64,000 nucleotides of DNA. It comes from Actinomycetes bacterium (GTDB taxonomy: Bacteria > Actinomycetota > Acidimicrobiia > Acidimicrobiales > Microtrichaceae). The DNA lies in the NCBI GenBank assembly GCA_024222295.1, contig JAAEPF010000002.1, positions 1-64,000 on the forward strand, read 5' to 3'. Shown piece after piece: positions 36,863 through 41,941 of the stretch. The notes beneath the pieces were generated by a model. It was not told where the DNA came from. It ran no database searches and saw nothing but the letters and a program-made list of their open reading frames with translations. Made by a program: the position numbers and the translations under genes. Numbering within the stretch: the stretch's first letter is position 1; each line of letters opens with the position of its first letter.

Positions 36863-37010
36863 CGGCGGATGCTACCCAGCCACCTGGTCGACGAGTGGCC
36901 TTGGCGCGGATCCGGCCCCGGACCTCGGCCATGCGAGGTCCAGGTGCGGGCCCATGTGTTCACTGGACGCCGGCCGTCCTTGGGGAGTTCTCTCTTCCTG
37001 TCGAACCGCG

Positions 37011-37024
37011 AGGGAGTACTCCCT
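37011..37024. promoter_or_regulatory. 14-bp perfect palindrome upstream of the macro-domain gene
   Basis: AGGGAGTACTCCCT is fully self-complementary. It lies in the 221-bp region between the divergent FAD dehydrogenase and macro-domain genes, 60 bp before the latter. No other feature is evident in this region. It may be an operator; I found no second copy. Confidence 0.35.
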
Positions 37025-37083
37025 GTGGGATGGACTCCTGTCGTCGCCCCGCTCGTGTGCTCGGGGCTGGGAGAGTGGTGGGC

Positions 37084-37599
37084 GTGCAGATCGGGACATT
37101 CCTCGGCGACATCACGACATTGACCGTGGACGCGATCGTCAACGCTGCGAACGAGCGCCTCACTCGGGGCGGAGGAGTGTGCGGAGCCATCCACACAGCG
37201 GCGGGCCCACAGCTCGCGCTGGCATGTGCGGAAATCGGTGGCTGCGACACCGGGTCAGCGGTGGCCACGCCCGGTTTCGATCTCGCGGCGAGGTGGGTGA
37301 TCCACGCAGTCGGGCCTGTGTGGGATGGCGGCGACCGGGACGAACCCGAACTGCTGGCGTCGGCCTACCGGCGCAGCATCGAGATCGCCGACGAGTTGGG
37401 AGCCGAGTCGATCGCGTTCCCGGCCATCTCGACAGGCATCTACGGCATGCCGCTGGAGGTCGGTTGTGACGTGGCGGTCCGGACACTTGTGGCGCTGGAC
37501 CCCCGCTCGACGCAACGCTGCGTTCTGGTTGCCTTCGATGCGCCGACGCTCGACGCGCTGCAATCCGCTCTGGCTCGGGGCGGGCACAGTTCGGACTGA
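37084..37599 (+). CDS. Macro-domain protein (ADP-ribose/O-acetyl-ADP-ribose hydrolase type)
   Basis: A 171-residue single macro domain, as in the YmdB/MacroD group that removes ADP-ribose from proteins or hydrolyses O-acetyl-ADP-ribose. The binding loops are GDITTLTVDAIVNAANERL, GGGVCGAIHTAAG and AISTGIYGMP, all matching the family. The GTG start follows GGGAGAG by 8 nt; in-frame GTG codons at 37075 and 37078 are alternatives. It is encoded just upstream of the Mau-like operon, but that operon has its own -10 element, so a functional link is not implied. Confidence 0.88.
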   Translation: MQIGTFLGDITTLTVDAIVNAANERLTRGGGVCGAIHTAAGPQLALACAEIGGCDTGSAVATPGFDLAARWVIHAVGPVWDGGDRDEPELLASAYRRSIEIADELGAESIAFPAISTGIYGMPLEVGCDVAVRTLVALDPRSTQRCVLVAFDAPTLDALQSALARGGHSSD

Positions 37600-37643
37600 C
37601 CGCCCTCCGCACATGGGGTGCGATCCGTCGCTATGTTGGCCGC

Positions 37644-38141
37644 GTGGTTCTGGTGGTGGTGTCGATGGTCGGGGCAGGCCTTCTGGTCGCGGCAGGGGTG
37701 TCCAAGCTCGTCGCGGGCGGTGCTGGCCGGGTCGATGGCCTTCCTGATCTCGTGCCACAGGGCCCGTTGCTCGGAATGGTCGAGGTCGGCATCGGGGCTT
37801 GGGCGCTGGTGGCTCCCGGCACGGTGTCGCTGGCCGTTCTCGGGTCCACGTATGCCCTTCTCGCGGCCCTGACCGGTTGGCAGCACAGCATGGGCGTGCA
37901 GGACTGCGGGTGCTTCGGTTCCGCACCCGTGCGGCCGAGCATTTTCCACACGGTCATGAACGCCGGATTCGCGGTCGCTGCGGGCCTCTCGGTGATCGCG
38001 GGTTGGCCCGAGTTGACCGCCGCAGCCCAGGCGGGCGCGGCACTGCTCGCCGTGATGGCCGGCTTCCTCATCTCTGCTGTGTTTTCCGAGGCTGCGGAGG
38101 TGTCTCGCCTCGTGGCCGAGTCCGAGTCGGTGCGCGGCTGA
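37644..38141 (+). CDS. MauE/DoxX-like membrane protein
   Basis: A 165-residue membrane protein with four predicted spans, like MauE and the DoxX-related redox membrane family. The loop after the third span has MGVQDCGCFGSAP; the DCGCFG motif is the hallmark of MauE-type proteins, thought to assist disulfide formation in the methylamine dehydrogenase light chain. TATGTT (37632-37637) is 6 nt before GTG 37644, so this is the first gene of the operon. Its stop overlaps the ATG of the cysteine-rich protein gene (TGATG), coupling their translation. I infer that it shuttles electrons or disulfides for that protein. Confidence 0.8.
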   Translation: MVLVVVSMVGAGLLVAAGVSKLVAGGAGRVDGLPDLVPQGPLLGMVEVGIGAWALVAPGTVSLAVLGSTYALLAALTGWQHSMGVQDCGCFGSAPVRPSIFHTVMNAGFAVAAGLSVIAGWPELTAAAQAGAALLAVMAGFLISAVFSEAAEVSRLVAESESVRG

Positions 38142-40027
38142 TGCGCACCATGGGTCGTCGGCGCACCGAGACCGCGGAGGAGTCCAAGCGGCGCGGCGCC
38201 CTCGCCGGTGGCGGGCTCGCCGACAGGGTCGCCGGGCTGATGGGCCGCGGCATCGACCGACGCAAGCTCCTTCGGCGAACTGCGATGGCCGGCACCGCGA
38301 TGACCGTCGCGCCAGGCACGTTCGTGCTGCGCCCGGGCACCGCCTACGGGGCGATCTGTGCACCGGGGGCCCTCTGCTACGACGGCTACACCGAGTTCTG
38401 CTGCACGCTCTACGGGGCCAACCGCTGTCCGCCCAACTCTGTGCTCGGTGGCTGGTGGAAGGTCGACGGCCATGAGTTCTGCGGCGGCGGCCCGCGCTAC
38501 TACATGGATTGCCACGGCACCTGCGGTGGCTGCGGCTGCCCGGGCAACGGGGTGTGCAGCGGAGGTTGTGCCGACACCACTTGCGGTTGCGCCTGGGGCG
38601 ACTGCAACAACCGCAAGGCCGGTTGCACCCACTTCCGCTATGGCCAGTGCAACCAGCACATGGCGTGCCTCGGTCCGATCAAGTGCCGTGTGGTCTCCTG
38701 CACGGAACCGTGGAAGCTCGATGGTTCGTGCACCCAGGCGGTGCGCACCGACAACGTCACCCGCTACCACCACCGGCCGTGCCTCATGGTCGACGCAGTC
38801 GGCAACCTCGACGCGATCGACGTGGTGCCCGGCGGCGTGCGCCTCCGGGGCTGGACCCTCGACCCCGGCACCGTGGGACCCAACACGGTCAACGTCTACT
38901 CCTGTCTCAGGCCTGCCGGCTCCTTCCAGGCAGCCCTGCCGCGCGCGGATGTCGGATCGGCGTGGCCGAGCCACGGCCCCAACCACGGCTTCGACATCTT
39001 CCTGCGACTCTGCCCGGGTGAGCAGTTGGTCTCGGTCGCCTCCATCGACACCTCGGGGCAGGGGTCGACGTGGATCGGCCACCAGATGGTCAACATCACC
39101 GGCCAGGGCTTCGGCCACTTCGACGTCGCCACCGCCGATGTCGGGCAGATAACGGTGGGCGGCTGGGTGATCGATCCCGATGCCTACGCCTCGTCGGGCA
39201 TCGACATCACCGTCGACGGCCAGCTGGTTCGCAGCGTGGTGGCCGACCGCTACCGGTCAGACCTCGAAGCGGCATATCCGCACCTCGGCGGCAACTACGG
39301 ATTCGAAGAGGTGATCCCCGCCACACCCGGTGAGCACACGGTCTGCATCGTCGCCCGCAACGCCAACGCAGGCGTCGACGTGGATCTCGGCTGCCGCACC
39401 GTGACGGTGGGGACCCATCCGCAGGGGGTGCTCGAGTCCGTCACTTCGCCGGGCCCCGGGCAGGTCCGCCTCGTTGGCTGGGCGTCCGACGACGATTCCC
39501 GCGCCGCGATCGATGTCGACGTCACAGTGGCCGGCATCTCGGTCGGGCGGTTCACCGCCGATGCTGCGCGGGGCGACGGACACGACGGCCATGGGTTCGA
39601 CATCACGCTCAACTCCGTGGGTTCCGGTGACCAGGAAGTCTGCGTGACCGCACTCAACGTCGGCCAGGGTGCCGATGTGCAGCTCGGCTGCTCGCCGGTA
39701 CTCGTGGCATCGGTGGCTGCCGGCGAGGTCACAGAGCTCGCAGCGATCGAGGCCGGCGTGCGGGTGACTGCGACCGGTGTGTTGCAGGTGGGCGGAGCCG
39801 ACCCGGCGACGCTGAGGCTGCTGGTCGACGGCGGCTACCGCGCATCGTTTCGCCCGGGACCCGATGGAGGCACGTGGGACTTCGATGTGCCCCCGGGCGA
39901 GCATGAGGTCGCGGTGGTCGCAAAGGTCGATGGCCCGGCGACGGTGCCGGTGGTGATGGCCACAGCCAGGCTGACCGTGCCCGGCGCACCGGTGGCGGCG
40001 CCCGCCGAAGCTGGTGTGCAGCCATGA
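38141..40027 (+). CDS. Tat-exported cysteine-rich protein, MauA-like domain plus GWxxDP-type repeats
   Basis: A 628-residue exported protein. DRRKLLRR (Arg40-Arg41) followed by a hydrophobic stretch is a Tat signal. Residues 73-214 contain 22 cysteines, with CC at 87-88 and RCPPNSVLGGWW at 95-106. The CPP...W pattern, Tat export and the MauE/MauD-like neighbours resemble the methylamine dehydrogenase light chain, in which two Trp form the TTQ cofactor. Trp105/106 and Trp152 (CAWGDC) are candidate partners, spaced about 46 residues against 51 in MauA. From residue 225 on there are three to four beta-rich repeats opening with GWTLDP, GWVIDP or GWASDD, each ending in a conserved CxxA segment. 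No heavy chain is encoded nearby, so enzymatic function is unproven. Confidence 0.7.
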   Translation: MRTMGRRRTETAEESKRRGALAGGGLADRVAGLMGRGIDRRKLLRRTAMAGTAMTVAPGTFVLRPGTAYGAICAPGALCYDGYTEFCCTLYGANRCPPNSVLGGWWKVDGHEFCGGGPRYYMDCHGTCGGCGCPGNGVCSGGCADTTCGCAWGDCNNRKAGCTHFRYGQCNQHMACLGPIKCRVVSCTEPWKLDGSCTQAVRTDNVTRYHHRPCLMVDAVGNLDAIDVVPGGVRLRGWTLDPGTVGPNTVNVYSCLRPAGSFQAALPRADVGSAWPSHGPNHGFDIFLRLCPGEQLVSVASIDTSGQGSTWIGHQMVNITGQGFGHFDVATADVGQITVGGWVIDPDAYASSGIDITVDGQLVRSVVADRYRSDLEAAYPHLGGNYGFEEVIPATPGEHTVCIVARNANAGVDVDLGCRTVTVGTHPQGVLESVTSPGPGQVRLVGWASDDDSRAAIDVDVTVAGISVGRFTADAARGDGHDGHGFDITLNSVGSGDQEVCVTALNVGQGADVQLGCSPVLVASVAAGEVTELAAIEAGVRVTATGVLQVGGADPATLRLLVDGGYRASFRPGPDGGTWDFDVPPGEHEVAVVAKVDGPATVPVVMATARLTVPGAPVAAPAEAGVQP

Positions 40028-40797
40028 CGGTCGTCGTTGCGGTCCTTGCAGTCGTCGTCGTGTTGTTGGCCGTTCTGGTGGTCAGCCTGCTGCGTAGCCA
40101 TGCCGAGATCCTGCGCGCACTCAATGAGATGGGTGTCGACATGGACCCATCCACCCCCACCGCCGCGGCGGCGGACGGCAGCCAGGAGTCGCCGGTCGGC
40201 CGCACCGCCGAAGGAGTCCCCGAGCCCGGCGACGCGCTCGGCCGGGTGGCCGGGGACATAGTGGGGCCCACACCCCAGGGTGATGCGGTGGTGCTGTCGA
40301 TGGCGGTCGGCGACTCGCCCACGCTGATCGCGTTCCTGAGCACGGGATGCATGACCTGTCGGGGCTTCTGGGAGGACATGTCACCGCAGCGTTCGGGGGC
40401 GGCTGAGGGTACGCGCACGGTGATCGTCACCCAGGGACAGGAAGCGGAGTCGCCCTCGGTAGTCGCCGATCTGGCGCCTGACGGAATCCCCGTGGTCATG
40501 TCGACCGATGCGTGGGAGGCCTACGGCATCCCGATCGCCCCGTACTTCGTGCTCGTCGAGCGCGGGCTGGTGGTCGGAGAGGGCGCAGCCGCGGGCTGGG
40601 ACCAGGTGAGGGGACTGCTGGAGCGGGCCCGCCACGACACGGGCCGGTCCGTTCACTCGCGCCGCGAGCTGCTCGGCGGCAACCGGGCGCGCATCGACGC
40701 AGAGCTCAGCGCGGCGAGGATCGAGCCCGGCGACCCGCGTCTGCATCACGACGCGCACGGGTCGGGCGACGACCCGGGTGAAGGGCGCGAGACGTGA
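40024..40797 (+). CDS. MauD/TlpA-like thioredoxin-fold protein, membrane-anchored
   Basis: A 257-residue protein with one N-terminal span (VVAVLAVVVVLLAVLVVSLL), a linker rich in Pro/Ala and a thioredoxin-like domain facing outside. The active site is FLSTGCMTCRGFW (CMTC), close to the CPVC of MauD, and the cis-Pro loop is YGIPIAPYFVLVERG. MauD is needed for correct disulfides in the methylamine dehydrogenase light chain; the same job for the upstream cysteine-rich protein is a reasonable inference. About 60 residues follow the domain, charged and His/Asp-rich at the end. Start and stop overlap neighbouring genes by 4 bp on each side (ATGA, GTGA). Confidence 0.8.
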   Translation: MTVVVAVLAVVVVLLAVLVVSLLRSHAEILRALNEMGVDMDPSTPTAAAADGSQESPVGRTAEGVPEPGDALGRVAGDIVGPTPQGDAVVLSMAVGDSPTLIAFLSTGCMTCRGFWEDMSPQRSGAAEGTRTVIVTQGQEAESPSVVADLAPDGIPVVMSTDAWEAYGIPIAPYFVLVERGLVVGEGAAAGWDQVRGLLERARHDTGRSVHSRRELLGGNRARIDAELSAARIEPGDPRLHHDAHGSGDDPGEGRET

Positions 40798-40865
40798 CGG
40801 CGCTCATCCTGATCGGAATGGCGACCGCTGTGCTCGGAGCCGTCCGGGCCAGCTGGTCGCCTTGA
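40794..40865 (+). CDS. 23-residue membrane micropeptide
   Basis: GTG at 40794 overlaps the stop of the MauD-like gene (GTGA). The frame encodes 23 residues, mostly hydrophobic (TALILIGMATAVLGAVRA), ending at a TGA that is itself part of the GAGGAG ribosome-binding site of the next gene. The overlaps at both ends argue for real, coupled translation, either to make a single-span peptide or to pass ribosomes on to the membrane protein gene. No homologue can be named. Confidence 0.5.
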   Translation: MTALILIGMATAVLGAVRASWSP

Positions 40866-40874
40866 GGAGAGTCG

Positions 40875-41477
40875 ATGCTGTCGAGCATCACGCCGCTCGG
40901 TGAGCGTGCGAAAGGCAACTCATGGGCTCTGACCACGGCCGCGTACGTGGCCGGATCGGCGTTTGGCGGTGCCGCGCTCGGGGTCCTGCTGGCGCCTCTC
41001 GGTGAGCTCATCGGCCGGGTCGCGGGCACCGACGTCCGGCTGGCCCTCACCGCTGCTGTGCTGGTGCTCACTGCCGTGTTCGAGGCCACAGGTGTGCCGA
41101 TTCCCACGATCCGCCGGCAGGTCGACGAGAACTGGCTGCATGCCTACCGGGGCTGGGTGTACGGAGCCGGCTTCGGGCTCCAGCTCGGGTTCGCCCTGGT
41201 CACGATCATCACGTCCTGGTCGACCTGGGCGGTGCTCGCGGTGGCCGTGCTGAGCGGTACCTGGTGGTCTGCGCTGGCCATCGGGGCGACGTTCGGGCTT
41301 GCACGCGGGCTGGTGCTGCTCGCCGCGCGTCGAGCCGACACGCCCCAGCGCCTGGCGGACCTGCATGCTCGCATTGCCTCGTCGGCGGCCCCCACGGCCC
41401 GCGCTACGCGCACGGGCCTCGTCGTGCTGGCGGCGGCCACGGCCGCGGTGGCTGTCGTGTCCGGGGCATCGGCATGA
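40875..41477 (+). CDS. Multi-pass membrane protein of the Mau-like operon
   Basis: A 200-residue protein with about five predicted spans, starting MLSSITPLGERAKGN and continuing into AYVAGSAFGGAALGVLL. A cytosolic loop, IRRQVDENWLHAYRGWVYG, precedes the third span. No cysteine is present, which argues against a CcdA/DsbD-like electron carrier. I do not recognise the family. The last 40 residues form a further hydrophobic segment. GAGGAG 6 nt before ATG 40875 is a strong ribosome-binding site. Its stop overlaps the next start (ATGA). By context it may export, anchor or scaffold the cysteine-rich protein; this is inference. Confidence 0.7.
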   Translation: MLSSITPLGERAKGNSWALTTAAYVAGSAFGGAALGVLLAPLGELIGRVAGTDVRLALTAAVLVLTAVFEATGVPIPTIRRQVDENWLHAYRGWVYGAGFGLQLGFALVTIITSWSTWAVLAVAVLSGTWWSALAIGATFGLARGLVLLAARRADTPQRLADLHARIASSAAPTARATRTGLVVLAAATAAVAVVSGASA

Positions 41478-41941
41478 CCTACCGGCTGGCGGCGCACGGC
41501 CTGTCGATCGTGGTCCCCACGGGTTGGGAGGCGTCCATCACCCTCACCCATGGCGACGGCCCCGGAGAGAACGGCGCCGAGGGCACTGACCACGCCGTGT
41601 TGCACCTGGCCAACTTCGCGCTGCCCAACCCGCGCGGTGACTTCGGTGGCAGTCCGATCGACACGATGGCGTCCAACCAGATCTTCCTGGCTCTGGTCGA
41701 GTTCGACTCGGCTGCGGCCTCGGCGCCGCTGTACCGCCAGCGCGGCCTTGCCACCATCACGGCCGACGGATTCAGGCGCGAGACGATGCACCGCCCGGTG
41801 CCCGGCCAAGCGGGACACCAGCAGTTCTTCAACGAGGCGGGCCGGGCGTTCTGCCTCTACAGCGCGGTCGGTAGCTACCGCCGCCGCCAGCAGCTCGCGA
41901 CCGGCGTGATGATGGTCATGTCAACGCTGCGGATCGACTGA
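41474..41941 (+). CDS. Small protein of unknown function, last gene of the Mau-like operon
   Basis: A 155-residue protein without signal peptide or membrane span. It begins YRLAAHGLSIVVPTGWEASI, a short beta hairpin with PTGWEA, then VLHLANFALPNPRGDFGG and a region with paired aromatic residues (QQFFNEAGRAFCLYSAVG). PxGWE openings occur in LpqN/PsbP-like folds that bind at membranes, but the match is too short to assign. One Cys is present. The start overlaps the stop of the preceding gene by 4 bp. It is convergent with the DNA methyltransferase gene (16 bp). Confidence 0.6.
   Translation: MTYRLAAHGLSIVVPTGWEASITLTHGDGPGENGAEGTDHAVLHLANFALPNPRGDFGGSPIDTMASNQIFLALVEFDSAAASAPLYRQRGLATITADGFRRETMHRPVPGQAGHQQFFNEAGRAFCLYSAVGSYRRRQQLATGVMMVMSTLRID

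Follow-up and report, generated by a model that had tools for sequence, protein, structure and literature searches.

In a 64,000-nucleotide stretch of DNA from an Actinomycetes bacterium of the family Microtrichaceae (contig JAAEPF010000002.1 of assembly GCA_024222295.1, hereafter the window), the operon at 37644-41941 was found to contain a gene for a MauF-like membrane protein that is interrupted by an in-frame TGA codon. Judged from its sequence context, this codon is almost certainly decoded as selenocysteine (Sec). The operon as a whole probably encodes a Mau-type thiol-disulfide maturation module, with a relay that includes the Sec-containing MauF, together with its substrate, a cysteine (Cys)-rich protein exported by the twin-arginine translocation (Tat) pathway. 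An earlier note on this DNA had described six genes, among them a 23-residue peptide and a separate membrane protein. Reading frames and comparison with homologues revealed a real and conserved run of five genes, the peptide and the membrane protein being parts of one frame that is uninterrupted in homologues carrying TGT or TGC.

The 23-residue frame (40794-40865) and the membrane frame (40875-41477) share one reading frame and are separated only by TGA GGA GAG TCG. In relatives, a peptide of 21-29 residues ending in WSP-stop lies between MauD and the membrane protein, and in the loci read its stop is placed 9 nt ahead of the supposed ATG with the frame kept. MauF of Paracoccus denitrificans reads ...GLLSTWSPCGYSSISLLRP... 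at this point; the corresponding sequence in the window is ...VRASWSP-TGA-GESMLSSITPLGE.... A profile of 43 relatives was matched to P. denitrificans MauF by hhalign with a probability of 98.9% (E 2.4e-17, 171 columns, 31% identity), and the alignment placed the TGA onto the Cys of the MauF motif STWSPCG. This position holds the only conserved Cys of the MauF-like family (43/43); among the relatives bearing the motif, TGA was found in 63 loci, TGT or TGC in 11, and TYSPC in 4 more. Frame continuity, the MauF alignment and the homologues with Cys codons thus define a single gene at 40794-41477 that is recoded at residue 24. On these sequence grounds a third Mau protein, MauF, is present in the operon, split by its TGA and missed in the earlier note. 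The gene adjoins mauE and mauD and does not stand beside the methylamine dehydrogenase genes mauB and mauA (PF06433 in 0/35 genomes). An AlphaFold2 model of the read-through protein reached a predicted local distance difference test (pLDDT) score of 95.0; a fold search with this model gave no significant PDB match, and neither Pfam nor NCBIfam has a model for the protein.

Were the TGA a true stop, a 23-residue microprotein would be followed by a membrane protein translated from the ATG at 40875 by translational coupling. TGA does act as an ordinary stop elsewhere in the operon, and most loci have an ATG 9 nt downstream, but MauF and the Cys-form homologues run continuously through this point and G-x-S is kept in the stretch separating TGA from ATG. 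Additionally, in two loci (L049 and L109) the codon proposed as downstream start is not ATG, and the TGA form co-occurs with selA, which leaves this explanation with a negligible probability. The 23-mer had also been considered as a microprotein or arrest peptide in its own right, a candidate that was dropped given the continuity of MauF through STWSPCG.

The host genome encodes the Sec machinery. A tRNA-Sec with anticodon tca (66 bits against 47), selA (419 bits), selB (247 bits) and a selD-like frame, the last assigned from sequence and not by hidden Markov model (HMM), form one cluster (G000:C17). Two marks of a selenoprotein gene, a TGA at a position otherwise held by Cys and Sec machinery in the same genome, are both found here. 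Across genomes, selA was detected in 48/50 of those with the TGA form, the two exceptions being small assemblies (1.9 and 2.2 Mb), and in 0/9 of those having the WSPC Cys form only. A second, more distant MauF class behaved in the same manner (23/26 TGA genomes and 0/3 Cys-only genomes). The association between Sec/Cys form and selA gave a Fisher p of 4e-9, a value that does not count independent events because the tree needs at least two changes of this trait (one within the close class alone). Near-cognate read-through of the UGA as some other residue, for example Cys or tryptophan (Trp), would be compatible with evidence that is comparative only. Against this stand the Cys codons that replace TGA at this position, the full Sec machinery of the host with its near-perfect selA co-occurrence and the conservation of hairpins resembling a selenocysteine insertion sequence (SECIS) in the TGA forms, so that we regard such read-through as hardly credible.

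The sequence directly downstream of the TGA was taken as a putative SECIS, a further mark of a selenoprotein gene, and its pair of hairpins is constrained at the RNA level. In 60 distinct TGA sequences, 99% of the hairpin 1 cells were paired, whereas sliding the hairpin gave 55% at most; its serine codon was AGC in 60/60, although AGC accounts for 14/78 serine codons across the operon. In hairpin 2 the apical loop contains GG; 11 sequences carry a double change from C-G to U-A, and the register is shifted in the Val class. The Cys forms mostly lack both hairpins, and mean energies were -15.9 kcal/mol for TGA forms versus -9.9 kcal/mol for Cys forms.

Some individual genomes add detail to this distribution. 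In G294 (L032, G294:C12) selA-selB adjoin the cassette, as does selA in G085 (L046, G085:C1), which ties genes of Sec synthesis to the operon. Genome G134, which has no selA, carries a Cys-form MauF (L177, G134:C19:56967-57629) apart from its Cys-rich cassette (L033).

The features of the operon are listed in Table 1. All junctions are tight, as first described, with a 1-nt overlap at 38141 and 4-nt overlaps at 40024, 40794 and 41474 between the open reading frames. A survey of gene neighbourhoods, which the earlier note had proposed, showed all five genes together in 46/50 well-covered loci (those with at least 4.8 kb on either side of the Cys-rich gene), so that the grouping is not due to chance. 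The usual orders were MauE-Cys-MauD-MauF-small protein and MauE-MauD-MauF-small protein-Cys. Neighbourhood clustering revealed clade-level synteny only, with no extra enzyme conserved beside the cassette. The absence of MauB noted at the outset was upheld in the host genome and in the wider set (PF06433, 0/35 genomes), and the diheme enzyme MauG was likewise missing (PF03150, 0/26 genomes); positive controls were detected in both searches.

Table 1. Features of the operon and of its recoded gene, in window coordinates.
Feature	Position	Strand	Remarks
MauE-like membrane protein	37644..38141	+	PF07291 31 bits, cut-off 27
Tat-exported Cys-rich surface protein, probable substrate	38141..40027	+	twin-arginine leader RRKLLRR
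Cys-rich domain, residues 71-215	38351..38785	+	alignment of 52 relatives
C-terminal repeats, residues 219-628	38795..40027	+	vary among relatives
MauD-like membrane-anchored thioredoxin	40024..40797	+	CMTC at 40348-40359
MauF-like membrane selenoprotein (predicted), 227 residues	40794..41477	+	read through TGA
In-frame TGA, predicted selenocysteine 24 (WSP-U-G)	40863..40865	+	aligned to the family's sole conserved Cys
SECIS-like element (putative)	40866..40910	+	hairpins 1 and 2 by fold
Hairpin 1, GATGCT-GTCG-AGCATC	40874-40889	+	
Hairpin 2, GGU apical loop	40891-40910	+	
Small soluble protein, conserved in the cassette	41474..41941	+	present in 50/50 well-covered loci

The assignment of the first gene as MauE-like was borne out by its Pfam profile score, and its sole conserved cysteines form a CGC motif (37905-37913; 20/20 homologues). 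The thioredoxin with CMTC also agreed with its earlier description as MauD-like, with its CxxC kept in 19/19 homologues; its score of 27.6 bits against TIGR02661 is far under the equivalog cut-off of 188.6, so it is named MauD-like only. The small soluble protein had no Pfam or NCBIfam match. A TATGTT sequence does occupy the claimed -10 element at 37632-37637, but a promoter scan found no sigma-70 pair, so that a single promoter starting the run is only putative. The frame further upstream (36900-37599) resembles a macro-domain protein (IVNAANERLTRGGGVCGAIH) by sequence.

The presumed substrate contains 22 Cys in residues 71-215, in agreement with the earlier count of 22 in about 140 residues, and 12 of them are invariant in 52 relatives. 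Also invariant are GWW (Trp105/106), RYxxDC and FRYGxC. Relatives of the domain occur in about 20/296 genomes of the phylum and, by an alignment search of a species-level genome collection, at 163 places, nearly all in Actinomycetota or unlabelled; a single-sequence query of the same collection gave none. Among them are an Acidiferrimicrobium and a cultured strain, Kineococcus xinjiangensis DSM 22857, which carries the TGA form (L118). The protein matched no Pfam or NCBIfam family, and a PDB sequence search with the domain gave no relevant match. The C-terminal repeats are replaced in relatives by other types (LGFP-like, cell-wall-binding-like and others, by eye) and are absent in some short forms. 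In the host genome they are also found in separate paralogues, and repeats similar to those of the window's protein also form part of a GH25 lysozyme and of a CHAP protein. Altogether, the picture of a Mau-like maturation set without MauB, accompanied by a Tat-exported protein in which a Cys-rich domain is joined to surface repeats, held up.

Additional candidate clients were observed in the distant class of Sec-containing MauF, where MauE and MauD adjoin Tat-exported Cys-rich proteins of two further kinds. The second kind carries the motif VCGQSG...WGWCWYA.GCC...DCC and has MauE, MauD and Sec-MauF as neighbours; in loci L174-L176 it reads VCGQSGV.PKC...WGWCWYA.GCCADGALKKICDCC, followed by repeats of cell-wall-binding type. 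The third kind (10 sequences) reads YHICGHTYTTGSCPHPY...GGGWSRCC...DCC and has 10 Cys, with a single Trp in 9/10. Its hhalign comparisons were not significant, either with MauA (8/150 shuffles as high) or with the Cys-rich domain of the first kind (38/150 shuffles as high). In ten loci (L164-L169, L171, L172, L178 and L181) a distant MauF, mostly with Sec, lies by MauD, often MauE and a protein of this third kind, and the motif preceding Sec is often FGP or YGP, not WSP. That a common module occurs with differing Cys-rich clients speaks for disulfide maturation rather than for a cofactor built from two Trp residues.

The earlier note had offered two readings of the Cys-rich domain, and the first of them, a stand-alone redox protein derived from MauA in which the Mau proteins form a Trp-derived quinone resembling tryptophan tryptophylquinone (TTQ), did not fare well. 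An HMM search with PF02975, the MauA light-chain family, gave no match to the Cys-rich protein, and hhalign assigned a probability of about 3%; the score was reached by 5/300 column shuffles and so beats most of them, and the alignment tracks C..C..CC..CPP..W..C..DC. A Tat leader, the CPP...W...C...DC pattern and 12 invariant Cys are shared with MauA. Of the 88 PDB chains re-aligned to the AlphaFold2 model of the domain (pLDDT 87.5), only the TTQ light chains 2agy_H (2.1) and 1mae_L (2.0) reached Z values of at least 2 (VIA); these are weak values from a predicted model, suggestive of a kinship with MauA without proving it, and a Foldseek search with the model gave no match. Of the Trp residues proposed as a pair, Trp105/106 are indeed invariant and Trp152 is unconserved, so that the pair Trp105/152 is not kept; Trp191 is nearly invariant (51/52 relatives) and is lost in the short forms L049-L051. 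The partner is not classed as MauA, and TTQ is unlikely, because a PF02975 match, MauB and MauG are absent, the hhalign probability is about 3% and Trp152 is unconserved. Together with the single Trp in most of the third client kind, these findings make the quinone reading improbable. A variant in which the Sec-MauF/MauE/MauD relay would additionally build a Trp-Trp or Trp-Cys cofactor at GWW, without MauG, on actinobacterial surface redox proteins appears still more doubtful. Of the two readings the second, in which the protein is stabilised by disulfides and has dedicated maturation machinery, is to be preferred.

Three redox groups are conserved in the module, namely the CGC of MauE, the CxxC of MauD and a single selenol or thiol in MauF, and from these we infer a disulfide maturation pathway. 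With UGA decoded as Sec, the MauF-like membrane protein would carry a single reactive selenol where its first helix ends. Sec-MauF, MauE and the MauD thioredoxin may then relay oxidising or isomerising equivalents through the membrane and set the disulfides of the Tat-exported protein outside it, after export. If every invariant Cys pairs, about six conserved disulfides would result, and the small fifth protein may assist. The product would be a disulfide-rich domain on the cell surface, displayed by repeats that vary with lineage, and no methylamine dehydrogenase would be made. In one published account (PMC7794033, citing van der Palen 1997), MauE was speculated to aid disulfide formation in the beta subunit of methylamine dehydrogenase, and the exact role of MauD was described as unclear.

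Several points weigh against this interpretation. According to that same source, the disulfide function of MauE and MauD is known from the methylamine system only and is partly speculative. With only two Sec/Cys changes in the 61 rows of the tree, the Fisher p overstates independence. Genomes G304 and G100 each hold a Cys copy, a TGA copy and selA, and TYSPC paralogues are present in selA genomes, so that Cys forms are not strictly limited to genomes without selA. The free energy of the hairpins, taken alone, is modest (z -1.3; median p 0.06 versus synonymous shuffles). In G304, the TGA and Cys copies of MauF are L084 and L127, and the Cys copy, which retains hairpin 1, looks like a recent Sec-to-Cys conversion. 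A different function for the module, as a general extracytoplasmic reductase or peroxide defence in which the Cys-rich protein is an electron donor or acceptor and not a folding client, would suit the surface location and the typical use of Sec in peroxide and thiol redox enzymes (PMC13188914). MauE and MauD are, however, known as maturation proteins, and both the even count of invariant Cys and the diversity of Cys-rich Tat partners fit clients better, which makes this alternative unlikely though worth bearing in mind.

Sec-MauF would be a selenium-containing version of the known MauF family, found in surroundings new for it, and would place a single conserved selenol in a polytopic membrane protein. 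MauF is absent from the 119 prokaryotic selenoprotein families of a May 2026 review (PMC13188914), and no link of MauF to selenium was found in a literature search of open-access published papers. Under standard gene calling the gene is broken up into a very short peptide and a shortened protein. The findings also show that a MauF/E/D maturation set exists apart from methylamine dehydrogenase in Actinomycetota, beside at least three kinds of Cys-rich Tat protein. No clear role of MauF is known to us so far; the exchange of its one conserved Cys for Sec suggests that it acts in thiol redox chemistry.

Among known systems, TsoB (a rhodanese/DsbD fusion, NF045694) is likewise a predicted redox membrane selenoprotein with a DsbD-like part, but it belongs to a different family; with a cut-off of 805 bits, the membrane part of the window's protein scores only 8.9. 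Candidate clusters for ribosomally synthesised and post-translationally modified peptides in Streptomyces (PMC7794033) contain MauE, and in one family also MauD, by candidate precursor genes in genomes without the remaining mau cluster, as here; the passages of that report considered here mention neither MauF nor a selenoprotein nor a Tat surface protein. MauA (PF02975, TIGR02659) shares the Tat leader, the 12 conserved Cys and the CPP...W...C...DC pattern with the Cys-rich protein, which differs in its missing profile match, MauB and MauG, its fusion to repeats and its Trp pattern. The mau operon of P. denitrificans likewise places MauF, MauE and MauD homologues by a Tat-exported Cys-rich protein. 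The operon described here lacks MauB and MauG, its presumed substrate is a long surface protein without a MauA HMM match, MauF is predicted to carry Sec, and one additional conserved small protein is present.

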